From NCBI GenBank assembly GCA_027064745.1, contig JAMOPD010000143.1:1-14660 (forward strand): DNA of 14,660 bases, in the 5' to 3' direction. The notes beneath the pieces were generated by a model. The model ran no database searches and was not told where the DNA came from. It worked only from the letters and a program-made list of their open reading frames with translations. The position numbers and the translations under genes are program-made. This document shows positions 1,955 through 12,641 of this stretch, piece by piece; the first letter of the stretch is position 1; each line of letters begins with the position of its first letter. The stretch comes from Thermococcaceae archaeon. Lineage in GTDB: Archaea; Methanobacteriota_B; Thermococci; Thermococcales; Thermococcaceae.

Positions 1955-2022
1955 CTTAAATCCATACTGTCAGTGCGAGGGCGCCTGATAATAAATCCGG
2001 TATAGACCAGTATCCTTAAATC
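1955..2022. repeat. 8-bp target site duplication around element A
   Basis: CTTAAATC occurs at 1955-1962 and again at 2015-2022, immediately outside both ends of the palindromic element. Perfect flanking repeats of this length are the usual footprint of transposase-mediated insertion. Confidence 0.75.
1963..2014. mobile_element. MITE-like palindromic element, copy A (52 bp)
   Basis: Starts CATACTGTCAG and ends CAGTATC, so the outermost bases form an imperfect inverted repeat. The interior has GCGAGGGCGCCTGATAAT, shared with copy B (GGCGCCTGATAAT) and partly with copy C (GAGAGCGCCTG). Relative to copy C the left arm lacks GATAACCG and the right arm is degenerate. It encodes nothing. It sits between the likely old promoter and the ATG of the nitroreductase pseudogene. 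Confidence 0.75.
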
Positions 2023-2948: not shown

Positions 2949-2960
2949 CTGGTGAGGCTC

Positions 2961-4106
2961 ATGTTCAACGTTGTCATCATTAGGTATGGTGAAATTGGAA
3001 CGAAATCGAGGCAGACTAGGAGATGGTTTGAGAGCATTCTGACTAACAACATCCGAGAGGCTTTAGTCAGCGAAGGTATTGAATATAAGAAAATCGAGGC
3101 CAAGCATGGAAGAATCCTCGTGAGGACTAACAAAGCGAAGGAAGCCGTTGACGTTCTCAGACGGGTTTTTGGAATAGTATCGCTCTCTCCAGCGATGGAA
3201 ATCGACGCCGAGCTGGATAAGATTAACAGAACGGCTCTAAAGCTCTTCAGGGGGAAGAAGAGGGAGCTCGGCCTGGAAAGGCCGCGCTTTAGGGTCACGG
3301 CGAGGAGAATCACCAAGGAGTTCCCGCTGAAGAGCCCAGAAATACAAGCCAAGGTTGGAGAGTACATCCTTGAAAACGAGGAGAGCGAGGTTGATCTGCA
3401 CAACTACGACATCGAAGTCGGCGTCGAGCTGATGGAGGGTAAAGCCTACGTCTTCGTTGACAAAATCTACGCCTGGGGCGGTCTTCCGATAGGAACGCAG
3501 GGCAAGGTTGTTGCACTCCTCAGCGGGGGCATAGACTCGCCGGTCGCTGCCTTCCTTATGATGAAGCGCGGTGTCGAAGTCATTCCCGTCCACATGTACA
3601 TGGGCGAGAAGACCCTTGAGAAGGTGCGCAAGATATGGAACCAGCTCAAACGGTACCACTACGGCGGGAAGGCCGAGCTTATAGTTGTGAAACCCAAAGA
3701 GCGCGAGAGAATACTCAAAAAGCTGAGGGAGCTTGGGAAAGAAAAATACACATGCGTATTCTGCAAGTACATGATGGTGAGGCACGCGGATAAAATCGCG
3801 AAGGAGTTCGGGGCGAAGGGCATCGTCATGGGCGATTCCCTCGGGCAAGTGGCAAGCCAGACCCTTGAGAACATGTACATAGTCAGCCAGGCGAGCGATT
3901 TGCCAATTTACAGACCGCTAATAGGCATGGACAAGGAGGAAATCGTCAGGATAGCAAAGGAGATAGGAACCTTCGAGCTCTCAACCCTGCCTGAGGATGA
4001 GATTCCGCTCATAGCGAAGCATCCCGTTATACGGGGCTCCTGGGAGGAGTTCAGGAAACTCTATCGGGCGGTTTTTGGGGAGGAACCCAAGTGGAAGAAA
4101 TGCTAA
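2961..4106 (+). CDS. thiI: tRNA 4-thiouridine synthase ThiI (THUMP + PP-loop)
   Basis: Cytoplasmic tRNA sulfurtransferase that adenylates U8 and replaces oxygen with sulfur; the family also acts in thiazole synthesis. ATG 2961 gives 381 residues and has GGTGAGG at ideal spacing. An upstream GTG at 2952 lies inside that Shine-Dalgarno and is less likely. Domains: N-terminal ferredoxin-like (1-60, VVIIRYGEIGTKS), THUMP (about 60-165), PP-loop ATP pyrophosphatase (180-381) with SGGIDSP at 188-194 and GDSLGQVASQTLEN at 291-304. A Cys265-x2-Cys268 pair (CVFC) matches the archaeal CxxC shown in a methanogen to be required for thiolation. As in other archaea there is no rhodanese domain. At the position of the bacterial persulfide-accepting Cys (E. 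coli Cys344) it reads DEIPLIA, without cysteine. GC rises within the gene and falls abruptly at its stop. Confidence 0.95.
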   Translation: MFNVVIIRYGEIGTKSRQTRRWFESILTNNIREALVSEGIEYKKIEAKHGRILVRTNKAKEAVDVLRRVFGIVSLSPAMEIDAELDKINRTALKLFRGKKRELGLERPRFRVTARRITKEFPLKSPEIQAKVGEYILENEESEVDLHNYDIEVGVELMEGKAYVFVDKIYAWGGLPIGTQGKVVALLSGGIDSPVAAFLMMKRGVEVIPVHMYMGEKTLEKVRKIWNQLKRYHYGGKAELIVVKPKERERILKKLRELGKEKYTCVFCKYMMVRHADKIAKEFGAKGIVMGDSLGQVASQTLENMYIVSQASDLPIYRPLIGMDKEEIVRIAKEIGTFELSTLPEDEIPLIAKHPVIRGSWEEFRKLYRAVFGEEPKWKKC

Positions 4107-5297: not shown

Positions 5298-5885
5298 ATG
5301 AAGGCCGTTGCACTACTAAGCTCGGGCATAGACTCGCCGGTGGCAATATACCTCATGCTCAGAAAGGGAATGGAGATAACGCCAGTCCACTTCAGGCAGA
5401 GTGATAAGAAGGAATCAAAGGTTCTGGAGCTCTGTAAAGTCCTGAGTAAATATGGAAAGCTCAATGAACCCGTAATTGTCGATGCCTACGAAGAACAGGC
5501 GCCAATTTTTTCCCAACTGATTGAAATAGGAAAGGCCAAGTGGATATGCCTTTTCTGTAAGTACACGATGCTGAGAAAGGCCTGTAGAATTGGGCATAAA
5601 ATAGGGGCAAAAGCCATAATTACCGGTGATTCTCTGGGTCAAGTAGCTAGTCAAACTCTCGATAACCTGCTCATCATAAGCACCGCGAGCGACCTTCCGA
5701 TTCTGCGGCCTCTCATAGGCCTTGACAAGGAGGAGATAGTCAGAATAGCCAAGGAGATAGGGACGTTCGAGATAAGCATCGAGCAGGAGGAGCCGTGCCC
5801 CTTTGTTCCGAGGTATCCTATAGTGAGGGGCTCCCTTGGGGAGTTTCTGAAGCTAGAAATACTAATGAATAAAGGCACGCTCTAA
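5298..5885 (+). CDS. ThiI-like PP-loop sulfurtransferase lacking the THUMP domain
   Basis: 195 residues corresponding only to the C-terminal PP-loop domain of ThiI. Motifs: SSGIDSP at 8-14 (SGGIDSP in ThiI), CLFC with Cys84 and Cys87, GDSLGQVASQTLDN at 110-123, and a long stretch nearly identical to the upstream ThiI (SDLPI, RPLIG, DKEEIVRIAKEIGTFE). Where that ThiI lacks the bacterial catalytic cysteine, this protein has one: Cys167 in EEPCPFVPRYP. Without the ferredoxin-like and THUMP domains it cannot bind tRNA in the usual ThiI way, so it may work with the full-length protein, thiolate another substrate, or act in thiazole sulfur transfer. These roles are inference. The frame has its own promoter and start, so it is not a simple truncation. 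Confidence 0.85.
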   Translation: MKAVALLSSGIDSPVAIYLMLRKGMEITPVHFRQSDKKESKVLELCKVLSKYGKLNEPVIVDAYEEQAPIFSQLIEIGKAKWICLFCKYTMLRKACRIGHKIGAKAIITGDSLGQVASQTLDNLLIISTASDLPILRPLIGLDKEEIVRIAKEIGTFEISIEQEEPCPFVPRYPIVRGSLGEFLKLEILMNKGTL

Positions 5886-5913
5886 TTACCCAATTCTCCA
5901 TAATTGTTCGTCA

Positions 5914-5980
5914 TGTCAGGATAAGCTGTGAAGGCGCCTGATAATCCAGACTATTAAGCCTGACTTATCCTGACAGTATC
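5914..5980. mobile_element. MITE-like palindromic element, copy B (degraded, about 67 bp)
   Basis: TGTCAGGATAAG at 5914-5925 and CTTATCCTGACA at 5964-5975 form a perfect 12-bp inverted repeat, and the right end continues GTATC as in the other copies. The interior holds GTGAAGGCGCCTGATAATCC, shared with copy A. The outermost five bases on the left (CGTCA in place of GATAC) are altered and no flanking 8-bp duplication is seen, so this is an older copy. It lies between the ThiI-like gene and the small membrane protein gene. Confidence 0.7.
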
Positions 5981-10615: not shown

Positions 10616-11779
10616 TTATCCCACCATGAGCTTTGCTATTAGGACAGTATATATCGTCCCAAATATATCACTATTGTTTGATATGAAGGGTATCGCAACA
10701 TGATCCGGATCAATATTCTTCTGGAAAAGAACATATGACACTGTGTATGCATAGAGCATGATGAAGAGAGCCATGAGAGGATAAGTTAGTATCAGCAGTT
10801 CCATATGCTCACCATGAATTCCCAGTAAACATTTAGCAATAATAAAAGCAAGAAAATTAATTAATATCCCTATTATCGGAGCTGTTGTGAAGAGGGCAAG
10901 TATTTCAAGAAACATTTCACCACTAAAGTAATCTTCAATTTCGCCGAGATGAAGCCTTGTGGAGGTTTTTGCCGCTATAATAGAACCGTAATTTCCAAAA
11001 CTACTCAAAAGAGCAGGATATGCAATGCTCAGCTTTTGGATAAGAGGACTGTACCTCTCCAAGAGGGAACCGGATATCACAGATAGGATGGCTAGAAGGA
11101 TCACCGTCGTAAAGAGACTTTTTAGGCTTAGAAATTCCTTTTTCTTTACCTTTCCTATTAAGGCCAAAGCGACAAAAACTGTTACGAGAAATGCATTCAT
11201 CATCCAGAATCCTGTTTTTGCCTGTTCGAGGAGAAGTATAAACGCGATCAATGAGGGAATCGTCAGTAAATCTCCCATTGAAGCTACAAGTGGAGCCGCT
11301 ACATTATCGGGATCACTCCCCCGTCTGAAGGTGAATATGGTAACAAATGCAGTAAAATATCCGAGTATCAAAGAAACAAGAATCGTAGAACTTATGACTA
11401 TTAAGAGGATGTCAAATGCATTTTCCCGTATTCCTCCAAGTATCCCTATACTCCAAAGAAGGCTTACTGGAATCAGTGAAAGGGCAATTCCAAGTACAAC
11501 ATTTTTTAAGACTTTTTTCTCCCTTAAACTCGGCTCCAGATCACCCAGATATAGCATCGTGGAAAATCGTGAAGCCATTGAACCAAATACGTTGCCTCTC
11601 AATCCCATCATTCCAGGAAGGATTACAAGTAATCCAGGATAGGAAAAGCGTATCTTCTCAAAATACTTCCCCAGAAATGTGCCCCCAAATAACCCTATGA
11701 TTAATGAAACAATCAGAGATGTCAGTGTGGTTGTGTGTGCTTCTTTGACCTTTGCTTTTATTTCTAAGAAAGTTATCAC
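10616..11779 (-). CDS. MgtE/SLC41-like divalent cation transporter with two membrane domains
   Basis: About 387 residues, almost entirely hydrophobic, built of two MgtE membrane domains in tandem. The halves carry matching motifs: PGMMGLRGNVFGSMASR in the first and PALLSSFGNYGSIIAAKTSTR in the second, then SDPDNVAAPLVASMGDLLTIP and IDPDHVAIPFISNNSDIFGT. The conserved DPD/xP/D residues resemble the Mg2+-coordinating pore of MgtE. Unlike bacterial MgtE it has no N-terminal domain and no CBS domains, the cytoplasmic Mg2+ gate. The arrangement resembles eukaryotic SLC41 proteins. Two GTG codons could start it; GTGAT spaced four bases before GTG 11779 favours that one over GTG 11788. Mg2+ is the likely substrate. 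Transcription diverges from the PhoU/TrkA_C pair. Confidence 0.88.
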   Translation of the reverse strand: MITFLEIKAKVKEAHTTTLTSLIVSLIIGLFGGTFLGKYFEKIRFSYPGLLVILPGMMGLRGNVFGSMASRFSTMLYLGDLEPSLREKKVLKNVVLGIALSLIPVSLLWSIGILGGIRENAFDILLIVISSTILVSLILGYFTAFVTIFTFRRGSDPDNVAAPLVASMGDLLTIPSLIAFILLLEQAKTGFWMMNAFLVTVFVALALIGKVKKKEFLSLKSLFTTVILLAILSVISGSLLERYSPLIQKLSIAYPALLSSFGNYGSIIAAKTSTRLHLGEIEDYFSGEMFLEILALFTTAPIIGILINFLAFIIAKCLLGIHGEHMELLILTYPLMALFIMLYAYTVSYVLFQKNIDPDHVAIPFISNNSDIFGTIYTVLIAKLMVG

Positions 11780-11830
11780 TGCAATCACTCTCCATTAATG
11801 ACACCCCTGTCTTTTTGAATCAGCTCCCAG

Positions 11831-11846
11831 TTATATATAAGCTTTC
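11831..11846 (-). promoter_or_regulatory. Promoter of the MgtE-like transporter operon
   Basis: Minus-strand GAAAGC followed by TTATATATAA is the clearest BRE/TATA pair in the window. Initiation about 25 bases downstream gives a leader of about 30 bases. Confidence 0.75.
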
Positions 11847-11851
11847 TTATG

Positions 11852-11923
11852 CTTGGTCAGATACTGTCAGGATAACCGGTGAGAGCGCCTGGCAGGCTGT
11901 TATCCTGACAGTATCCTTGGTCA
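11852..11923. repeat. 8-bp target site duplication around element C
   Basis: CTTGGTCA occurs at 11852-11859 and 11916-11923, immediately outside both ends of the perfect inverted repeat element. Same length and position as the duplication around copy A. Confidence 0.8.
11860..11915. mobile_element. MITE-like palindromic element, copy C (56 bp, intact)
   Basis: A perfect 17-bp terminal inverted repeat, GATACTGTCAGGATAAC at 11860-11876 and GTTATCCTGACAGTATC at 11899-11915, encloses 22 bases that contain GTGAGAGCGCCTG and a smaller nested palindrome GCCTG-G-CAGGC. It has no coding capacity. It lies between the divergent promoters of the MgtE operon and the PhoU/TrkA_C pair, about 14 bases upstream of the MgtE BRE. 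The perfect ends and perfect target duplication mark it as the youngest of the three copies. As RNA or a cruciform it would fold into a very stable hairpin. Confidence 0.85.
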
Positions 11924-12029: not shown

Positions 12030-12641
12030 GTGGAAGAATGGGAGGAATACGAGTATAAGCCAAAAAGTGTAAAGGAGATTTTCGTTGAAATGAAGAATAC
12101 TGCAGAGTTTATGGTAGATTTGGCATATTCTTCTGTGCTGTTTGGGGAAAAAGAATTGGCCGAAGAAGTTATTGAGCTTGAGGAATACCTTGATATGCTA
12201 AACTACCACCTCATGGTGCATGCAGTTTTAGCAGCAAGAAGTCCCAAGGAAGCAGAGCAGATTACGTCAATCCTACACATGGCCCACTCAATAGATGACA
12301 TTTCAAACGCCGCGGCAGATCTTGCAAAGATGATCCTTGAGGAGGTCGAGCTTCATCCTATTATAAAGCAAGTTATTCTTGAGAGCGAGGAGGTTATTGG
12401 AAGATTTATAGTGACCCCAGATTCAATCCTCGTCGGAAAAACACTGGAAGAACTTAAACTCGCCAGCAACACAGGAGTCTGGATTTTGGCTGTCAGAAGA
12501 GGAAAGCGATGGCTCTTTGATCCAGATGGTGATTTTAAAATTCTTGCTGGGGATGTTCTCATCGGGAGGGGAACACAGACATCAATAGACTATCTCAAGG
12601 AAATTGCAAGAGGTGTAATAAAGGTGATAGGAAATGAGTGA
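12030..12641 (+). CDS. PhoU-like / TrkA_C domain protein (COG3273 type), first of tandem pair
   Basis: 203 residues with a GTG start preceded by GGTGG. The N-terminal part (about 10-125) is an alpha-helical PhoU-like domain with EMKNTAEFMVDLAYSSVLF and an acidic helix AEEVIELEEYLDML. The C-terminal part (about 126-200) is a TrkA_C/RCK_C domain: GRFIVTPDSILVGKTLEEL, then WILAVRRGKRW and ILAGDVLIGRG. TrkA_C domains bind small ligands and gate cation channels and transporters. It has no membrane segment, so it is soluble. Proteins of this architecture are known in Thermococcales beside cation transporters; divergence from the MgtE-like gene suggests it regulates that transporter. The last eight bases overlap the next gene. 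Confidence 0.85.
   Translation: MEEWEEYEYKPKSVKEIFVEMKNTAEFMVDLAYSSVLFGEKELAEEVIELEEYLDMLNYHLMVHAVLAARSPKEAEQITSILHMAHSIDDISNAAADLAKMILEEVELHPIIKQVILESEEVIGRFIVTPDSILVGKTLEELKLASNTGVWILAVRRGKRWLFDPDGDFKILAGDVLIGRGTQTSIDYLKEIARGVIKVIGNE

Follow-up and report, generated by a model that had tools for sequence, protein, structure and literature searches.

A family of palindromic archaeal MITEs with IS6-type ends and its putative placement at a fixed distance upstream of promoters

Between two divergent genes of a Thermococcaceae archaeon (assembly GCA_027064745.1, contig JAMOPD010000143.1, of which we analysed a stretch of 14,660 nucleotides, hereafter the window) lies a short perfect palindrome flanked by a direct repeat. 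This locus raises two questions, i.e., what kind of element the palindrome is and how it came to stand next to what looks like the promoter of one of these genes. A sequence-only reading had described a 56-bp palindrome with an 8-bp duplication, and this was exact to the base: CTTGGTCA stands on both sides, and the perfect 17-bp arms enclose a centre of 22 bases. Its placement between divergent genes was equally accurate: From the Pfam domains, the gene on the minus strand encodes an MgtE-type transporter and its neighbour on the plus strand a PhoU/TrkA_C protein (Table 1). The fold of the palindrome is strong (z -6.2). With up to three mismatches allowed, the 16-mer end has four matches in the window (three exact, all in elements) compared with 0.14 expected, and a count of four was reached by 0 of 200 shuffles.

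Table 1. Coordinates of the palindromic elements, their duplications, and neighbouring features in the window.
Feature	Positions	Strand	Details
MITE copy, 56 bp	11860..11915		perfect 17-bp inverted arms at 11860-11876 and 11899-11915, separated by 22 bases
Target-site duplication, left, CTTGGTCA	11852..11859		sequence
Target-site duplication, right, CTTGGTCA	11916..11923		sequence
MgtE-type divalent cation transporter gene, insertion in its upstream region	10616..11788	-	Pfam PF01769, 1.7e-35
PhoU/TrkA_C domain gene, other side of the insertion	12030..12641	+	Pfam PF01895 and PF02080
TATA-like box TTATATATAA of the MgtE-type gene	11831..11840	-	starts 11 nt beyond the duplication; putative promoter function, judged from sequence
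BRE-like stretch AAGAAAGC, on the MITE side of the TATA-like box	11841..11848	-	predicted from sequence
Second MITE copy (1963-2014), 52 bp, with duplications	1955..2022		perfect 8-bp CTTAAATC at 1955-1962 and 2015-2022
Third, older MITE copy, 72 bp	5909..5980		left tip decayed; duplication not recognisable

Two more copies had been proposed in the window. The one at 1963-2014 was borne out and also carries a perfect 8-bp duplication, CTTAAATC, that the earlier description had missed. The one at 5914-5980 is real as well, but its extent needed correction to about 5909-5980, with a decayed left tip and no visible duplication. Elsewhere in the window, a full ThiI gene (2952-4106) and a shorter second protein with the ThiI C-terminal domain alone (5298-5885) were identified with Pfam. 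A reading frame at 2033-2530, which by eye we take to be nitroreductase-like, appears broken near position 2395 and resumes in another frame, and its first part is without a Pfam match.

Across the whole genome, the terminal 15-mer ATACTGTCAGGATAA gave 223 matches with up to two mismatches (114 forward, 109 reverse), compared with five (2 forward, 3 reverse) for a reversed-control 15-mer in the same genome and at the same limit. Halving the former number gives about 110 MITE copies. From 79 fetched stretches we parsed 69 end pairs and, after dropping nine pairs of more than 90 bp (the limit was ≤90 bp between tips), counted 60 copies. Together with a holdout of 21, this makes 81 paired copies with lengths of 42-88 bp, counting one outer base per side. 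These copies align to an 85-base consensus and carry many internal deletions in varied combinations; full-length copies measure 86-88 bp including the outer bases, and the 56-bp copy of the window is an internally shortened form. The base just outside the 15-mer is G or C in 57 of 60 copies on each side. In kind, the palindrome family is an ordinary MITE: The elements are short and multicopy, are devoid of a transposase gene, and have terminal inverted repeats of 15-17 bp as well as target-site duplications of constant length (8 bp).

These duplications are perfect and at the expected place in 30 of the 81 parsed copies (22/60 in the first set and 8/21 in the holdout) when one outer base per side is taken as part of the element. 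For the first 60 copies, shuffling of left against right flanks produces identical 8-mers in 0.04% of cases. The earlier proposal of a non-autonomous miniature transposon with a partner that makes 8-bp duplications is well matched by the roughly 110 scattered copies, their duplications, and the IS6 partner described below. Signs of inversion or cointegrate products were sought by comparing the duplications among all 60 copies, and matches across copies were confined to two adjacent copies on contig C63. The within-copy duplications form a pattern that fits simple insertions, although cointegrates resolved by recombination may also have produced it. For bacterial IS6 elements, cointegrate formation followed by resolution through homologous recombination is described in PMC7986276. 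Two 42-bp elements retain perfect duplications, and such short copies with matched duplications make the family relevant to the question of simple insertion by archaeal IS6 elements. Among the 60 copies (L049-L126), the internal deletions combine left and right parts variably, as if copies had recombined or as if deletion were recurrent at the hairpin.

At the corresponding locus of relatives the palindrome is missing. A DNA query comprising the starts of both flanking genes had matches in 56 of the 61 genomes of the genus, the window's own genome counted, and both neighbouring genes were syntenic in 24 of the 29 relatives' loci that we fetched. The palindrome is present in 0 of these 24 loci, where the best end match has 6-7 mismatches per 15, and the spacer between the two genes measures 62-141 bp in these relatives compared with 239 bp here. 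Retention of the palindrome at the same place in orthologous spacers, which the sequence-only reading had named as an observation that would speak against a transposon, is seen at none of them. The longer alignments of relatives are at best about 77% identical, so that an exact empty site is not demonstrable.

The family as a whole has a similarly narrow distribution. When the 61 genomes of the genus were searched with the 87-base consensus at an E-value of 0.001, it matched the window's own genome alone. The end 15-mer (up to two mismatches) is present in 57 of the 61 genomes, mostly with few matches and near the reversed control, and the highest counts belong to the window's genome (223), followed by G083 (25), G007 (17), and G030 (13). 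Scans of named genomes and viral contigs for a pattern with both ends exact gave no match in this set, outside of which the own or very near records may lie, and a plasmid search for the element gave no match either.

An autonomous partner should share the ends of the MITE, and a full-length insertion sequence with the ends of the palindrome, as the earlier reading had envisaged, does exist in two relatives (at least one copy being intact), but in the window's own draft genome we found just two remnants. In G024 and G083, MITE-type ends enclose 779 bp between tips. The transposase of the G024 copy is frameshifted and its duplication is AAACTTAC, while the G083 copy has a 264-aa open transposase frame and the duplication GATCAAAG on both sides. 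From an internal ATG of this frame, a start that we chose ourselves, we took a 233-aa transposase that scores 183.4 bits with NCBIfam NF033587 (cut-off 125) and 49.6 bits with Pfam PF13610 (cut-off 27). With 779 bp and the 8-bp GATCAAAG, the G083 element lies within the length range of IS6 elements (about 700-890 bp) and has their 8-bp duplication. The IS6 end motif is given as cTGT with G at position 7 (PMC7986276, PMC6807381), and GATACTGTCAGG has both CTGT and G7; it begins with GA instead of GG, and ISPfu ends are listed as starting with GA (PMC6807381 Table 5). By these features, the partner of the MITE belongs to the IS6 family and is probably of the ISPfu type. The interior of the MITE was compared with the insertion sequence in six ways, and the mean alignment scores did not clearly exceed those of shuffles (in the best case, 26 of 400 shuffles scored equally high). 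We therefore rejected derivation of the interior from the IS ends, and shared sequence of MITE and IS is claimed for the ends alone.

In the genus, PF13610 matched in three of 61 genomes (one above the cut-off) and had no match in the window's own genome. This draft is 85% complete, and the search for an intact insertion sequence in it yielded two transposase remnants alone, i.e., a 361-bp piece on contig C33 and a C-terminal fragment on contig C376. Among 23 ends from the 20 stretches of the genome that had not resolved into simple short pairs and could have hidden an intact copy, three were IS-like, all of them in these two known remnants. Given the completeness of the draft, an intact copy may be missing from it, and with no intact partner found there, present activity of the MITE family is no more than a possibility. 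On C376 (L188/L105 of G000), a MITE adjoins the C-terminal piece of an IS6 transposase, and an imperfect TTGAGGA repeat flanks the left MITE end and the right IS end, as if a chimeric element had moved. In another genome (G022), two contigs (L170 and L171) stop ca. 100 bp inside one IS sequence, as expected for a multicopy insertion sequence collapsed by the assembly.

The position of the copies is far from random with respect to TATA-like boxes. In a first scan, 34 of 60 copies had such a box 10-19 nt past the duplication vs 193 of 4000 control points (4.8%). In 41/60 copies, the box has its start 9-13 bp past the duplication, compared with 287/6000 random non-ORF points (4.8%) and, within the same loci, 436/5520 points that were slid by 15-60 nt (7.9%), and 17 of the 22 copies with a perfect duplication have this spacing. 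The starts peak at +10, +11, and +12 with 26, 16, and 13 of 120 sides vs ca. 0.8 expected at each position (overlapping matches counted). Both the motif pattern and the 9-13 window had been fixed after inspection of the first 60 copies; with the pattern unchanged, 11 of the 21 holdout copies, which are new ones from this genome, had a hit (p about 7e-10). This holdout was composed of 23 unfetched places and two others, with four of the 25 stretches lacking a parsable pair and a slightly looser pairing limit, and the stricter limit gave 10/18. In relatives and other Thermococci, the flanks of complete and incomplete IS copies likewise had the spacing in 14/38 cases vs 2.6% of random non-ORF sides in the same loci (p about 4e-13), although commonly just one side of an insertion sequence would face a promoter. 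For this count, one of 39 flanks was dropped at a contig end, both sides of one insertion may be included, and some of the relatives' flanks had been seen before the counted test. From the holdout and the IS flanks together, the spacing appears to be a property of the IS6 transposase and not of the MITE alone.

Not all copies follow this pattern. A TATA-like match at 9-13 is lacking in 19/60 copies of the first set and in 10/21 of the holdout; in the window, the copies at 1963-2014 and 5909-5980 are without such a box, and the copy at 11860-11915 alone fits. At two haloarchaeal IS6 copies with perfect duplications, a clear promoter at that spacing was not seen (n=2). Across the 47 sides with a hit, the commonest bases from the edge of the duplication are A-A-A-C-G-A-A-A-A-A-T-T-T-T-T-A-A-A (the first three weak), a consensus in which a predicted BRE-like stretch precedes a TATA box. 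In 32 of these 47 cases the A-rich, BRE-like side is nearer to the element, in four it is farther, and 11 are tied; the orientation of the element itself is unbiased (22 vs 25). A gene start follows within 110 nt beyond the box at 36/47 hit sides vs 44/73 other sides, a measure that discriminates poorly. With the element and one duplication removed, two of 60 insertion points fall into a frame open over 300 nt, compared with 58% of random points in the window and 55% in L001-L030. We infer that the TATA-like boxes at this spacing are working promoters. The fixed distance at which many MITE copies and their parent transposons stand before them suggests that the target is found by promoter recognition.

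Taken as a whole, an IS6 (ISPfu-type) origin of the MITE combined with insertion targeted to the edge of promoters is very probably the best explanation of these data. The ends (G/C)ATACTGTCAGGATAA were recognised by an IS6 transposase that was produced in another place or at an earlier time, and the MITE was inserted with an 8-bp duplication, as the ends, the duplications, and the partner show. In most copies examined, the edge of the duplication stands ca. 10-12 bp upstream of a TATA-like box and just outside the BRE-like stretch in either orientation, as the spacing statistics show. Either this transposase or its complex with the element would be guided to the upstream edge of promoters bound by TBP and TFB, the target being marked by these host general transcription factors or by the promoter DNA itself. 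Gene and core promoter would be spared, and all sequence upstream of the BRE would be swapped for one palindrome at many promoters. We hold the more specific version, in which Thermococcales IS6 elements home on TBP/TFB and a burst of the MITE put one palindrome directly before the BRE of perhaps 60-80 promoters, with slightly less than even confidence, and it is speculative that the transposase follows TBP/TFB and not simply the promoter DNA.

The transposase might instead read the promoter DNA directly, i.e., an A-rich stretch followed by a TATA-like bend, without any host factor. IS6 transposases are described as having a helix-turn-helix of their own (PMC6807381), an HTH_23 match lies just under the cut-off, and the BRE-TATA consensus at the sites is strong; however, the preference for the BRE side (32 vs 4 of 47) comes naturally to a TFB-TBP complex, though direct reading could also produce it. 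We regard direct reading as a genuine possibility while leaning against it. Random insertion followed by selection, which would have purged copies from genes and core promoters so that the survivors stand in spacers immediately before the BRE, appears improbable. It can draw on the harm done by insertion into genes, on the 58 of 60 sites outside long open frames, and on spacers that are short and often contain promoters, but within the same loci the spacing is seen at just 7.9% of points displaced by 15-60 bp, the peak is just 3 bp wide (+10 to +12), and the same spacing recurs at IS copies of other species (14/38 flanks). From the narrow peak and the slid control, we infer that integration and not later selection sets the spacing.

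That the palindrome is no transposon at all but an operator, terminator, or structured RNA kept by selection is hardly credible to us. Its fold is strong, and its site, immediately before the BRE, is also the binding position of the archaeal regulator CopR (PMC7830388), yet the 8-bp duplications contradict such an origin, both orientations occur (22 vs 25 of 47 hit sides), an insertion sequence with identical ends exists, and the element is missing from 24/24 syntenic loci of relatives. The RNA or terminator variant was rejected despite the fold, with no Rfam match in the window and with the duplications and the scatter of copies against it. The palindrome may still have been co-opted later at single promoters. 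In P. furiosus, the motif of CopR lies directly upstream of the BRE (PMC7830388), and the MITE copies could therefore matter for regulation.

If promoter-edge insertion is true, integration guided by promoters extends to archaea and to the IS6 family, a group of clinical importance through its member IS26. A mobile element would have rewritten the upstream regions of many promoters in one genome, at the position of a CopR-type regulator, and these promoters would share a ready-made control site. The target choice of a small and probably thermostable DDE transposase would become testable in vitro with TBP and TFB. The system would be an archaeal counterpart of the targeting of Ty3 or TnGBS. Yeast Ty3 is targeted via the TBP-containing promoter complex; it is a retrotransposon at Pol III genes and serves as an analogy for the proposed mechanism without any claim of homology.

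Among the matches listed for the open-licence literature, the titles and openings of abstracts give no account of this MITE family or of transposon targeting by TATA, TBP, or TFB in archaea. The known elements most like the partner are ISPfu1, ISPfu2, and ISPfu5, IS6 elements of Pyrococcus furiosus tabulated with 779-782 bp, a 233-aa transposase, 15/16-bp ends, and duplications of 8 bp, or 9 bp for ISPfu5 (PMC6807381 Table 5). The G083 element resembles them in its 779 bp, 233 aa from the chosen ATG, GA ends, and 8-bp duplication, and this likeness is one to the tabulated descriptions. For these three elements, the passages among the matches listed, including those of PMC6807381, PMC7986276, and PMC6640164, report no promoter spacing.

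As non-autonomous elements with IS6 ends, the copies described here resemble MITEBth2 and MITEHarch3, which are named as IS6-family MITEs in PMC6807381. Two IS6-family MITEs of 227 and 336 bp are mentioned in PMC7986276; unlike these, the present family measures 42-88 bp, has about 110 copies in one genome, and has an interior that is not significantly IS-like. Many insertion sequences including IS6 elements are reported to lie within 50-100 bp of a neighbouring gene (PMC9208149), whereas a fixed distance to a promoter element and the specifics of archaeal IS6 elements are absent from that account as excerpted. For the archaeal ISH6, PMC3942029 suggests a possible preference for promoter or intergenic DNA, without giving a fixed spacing. 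The same source describes TnGBS, ISLre2, and some elements of the ISKra4 group, all with Mutator-like DDE transposases, as inserting upstream of sigma-A promoters with constant spacing, 15-17 bp before the -35 element, and those among them with nearly symmetrical ends as occurring in both orientations or with promoters on either side (PMC3942029). The family studied here is like them in its apparent fixed-distance insertion upstream of promoters, but it differs in that an IS6 transposase would act at archaeal BRE/TATA promoters, while theirs belong to an unrelated transposase family and target bacterial sigma-A promoters.
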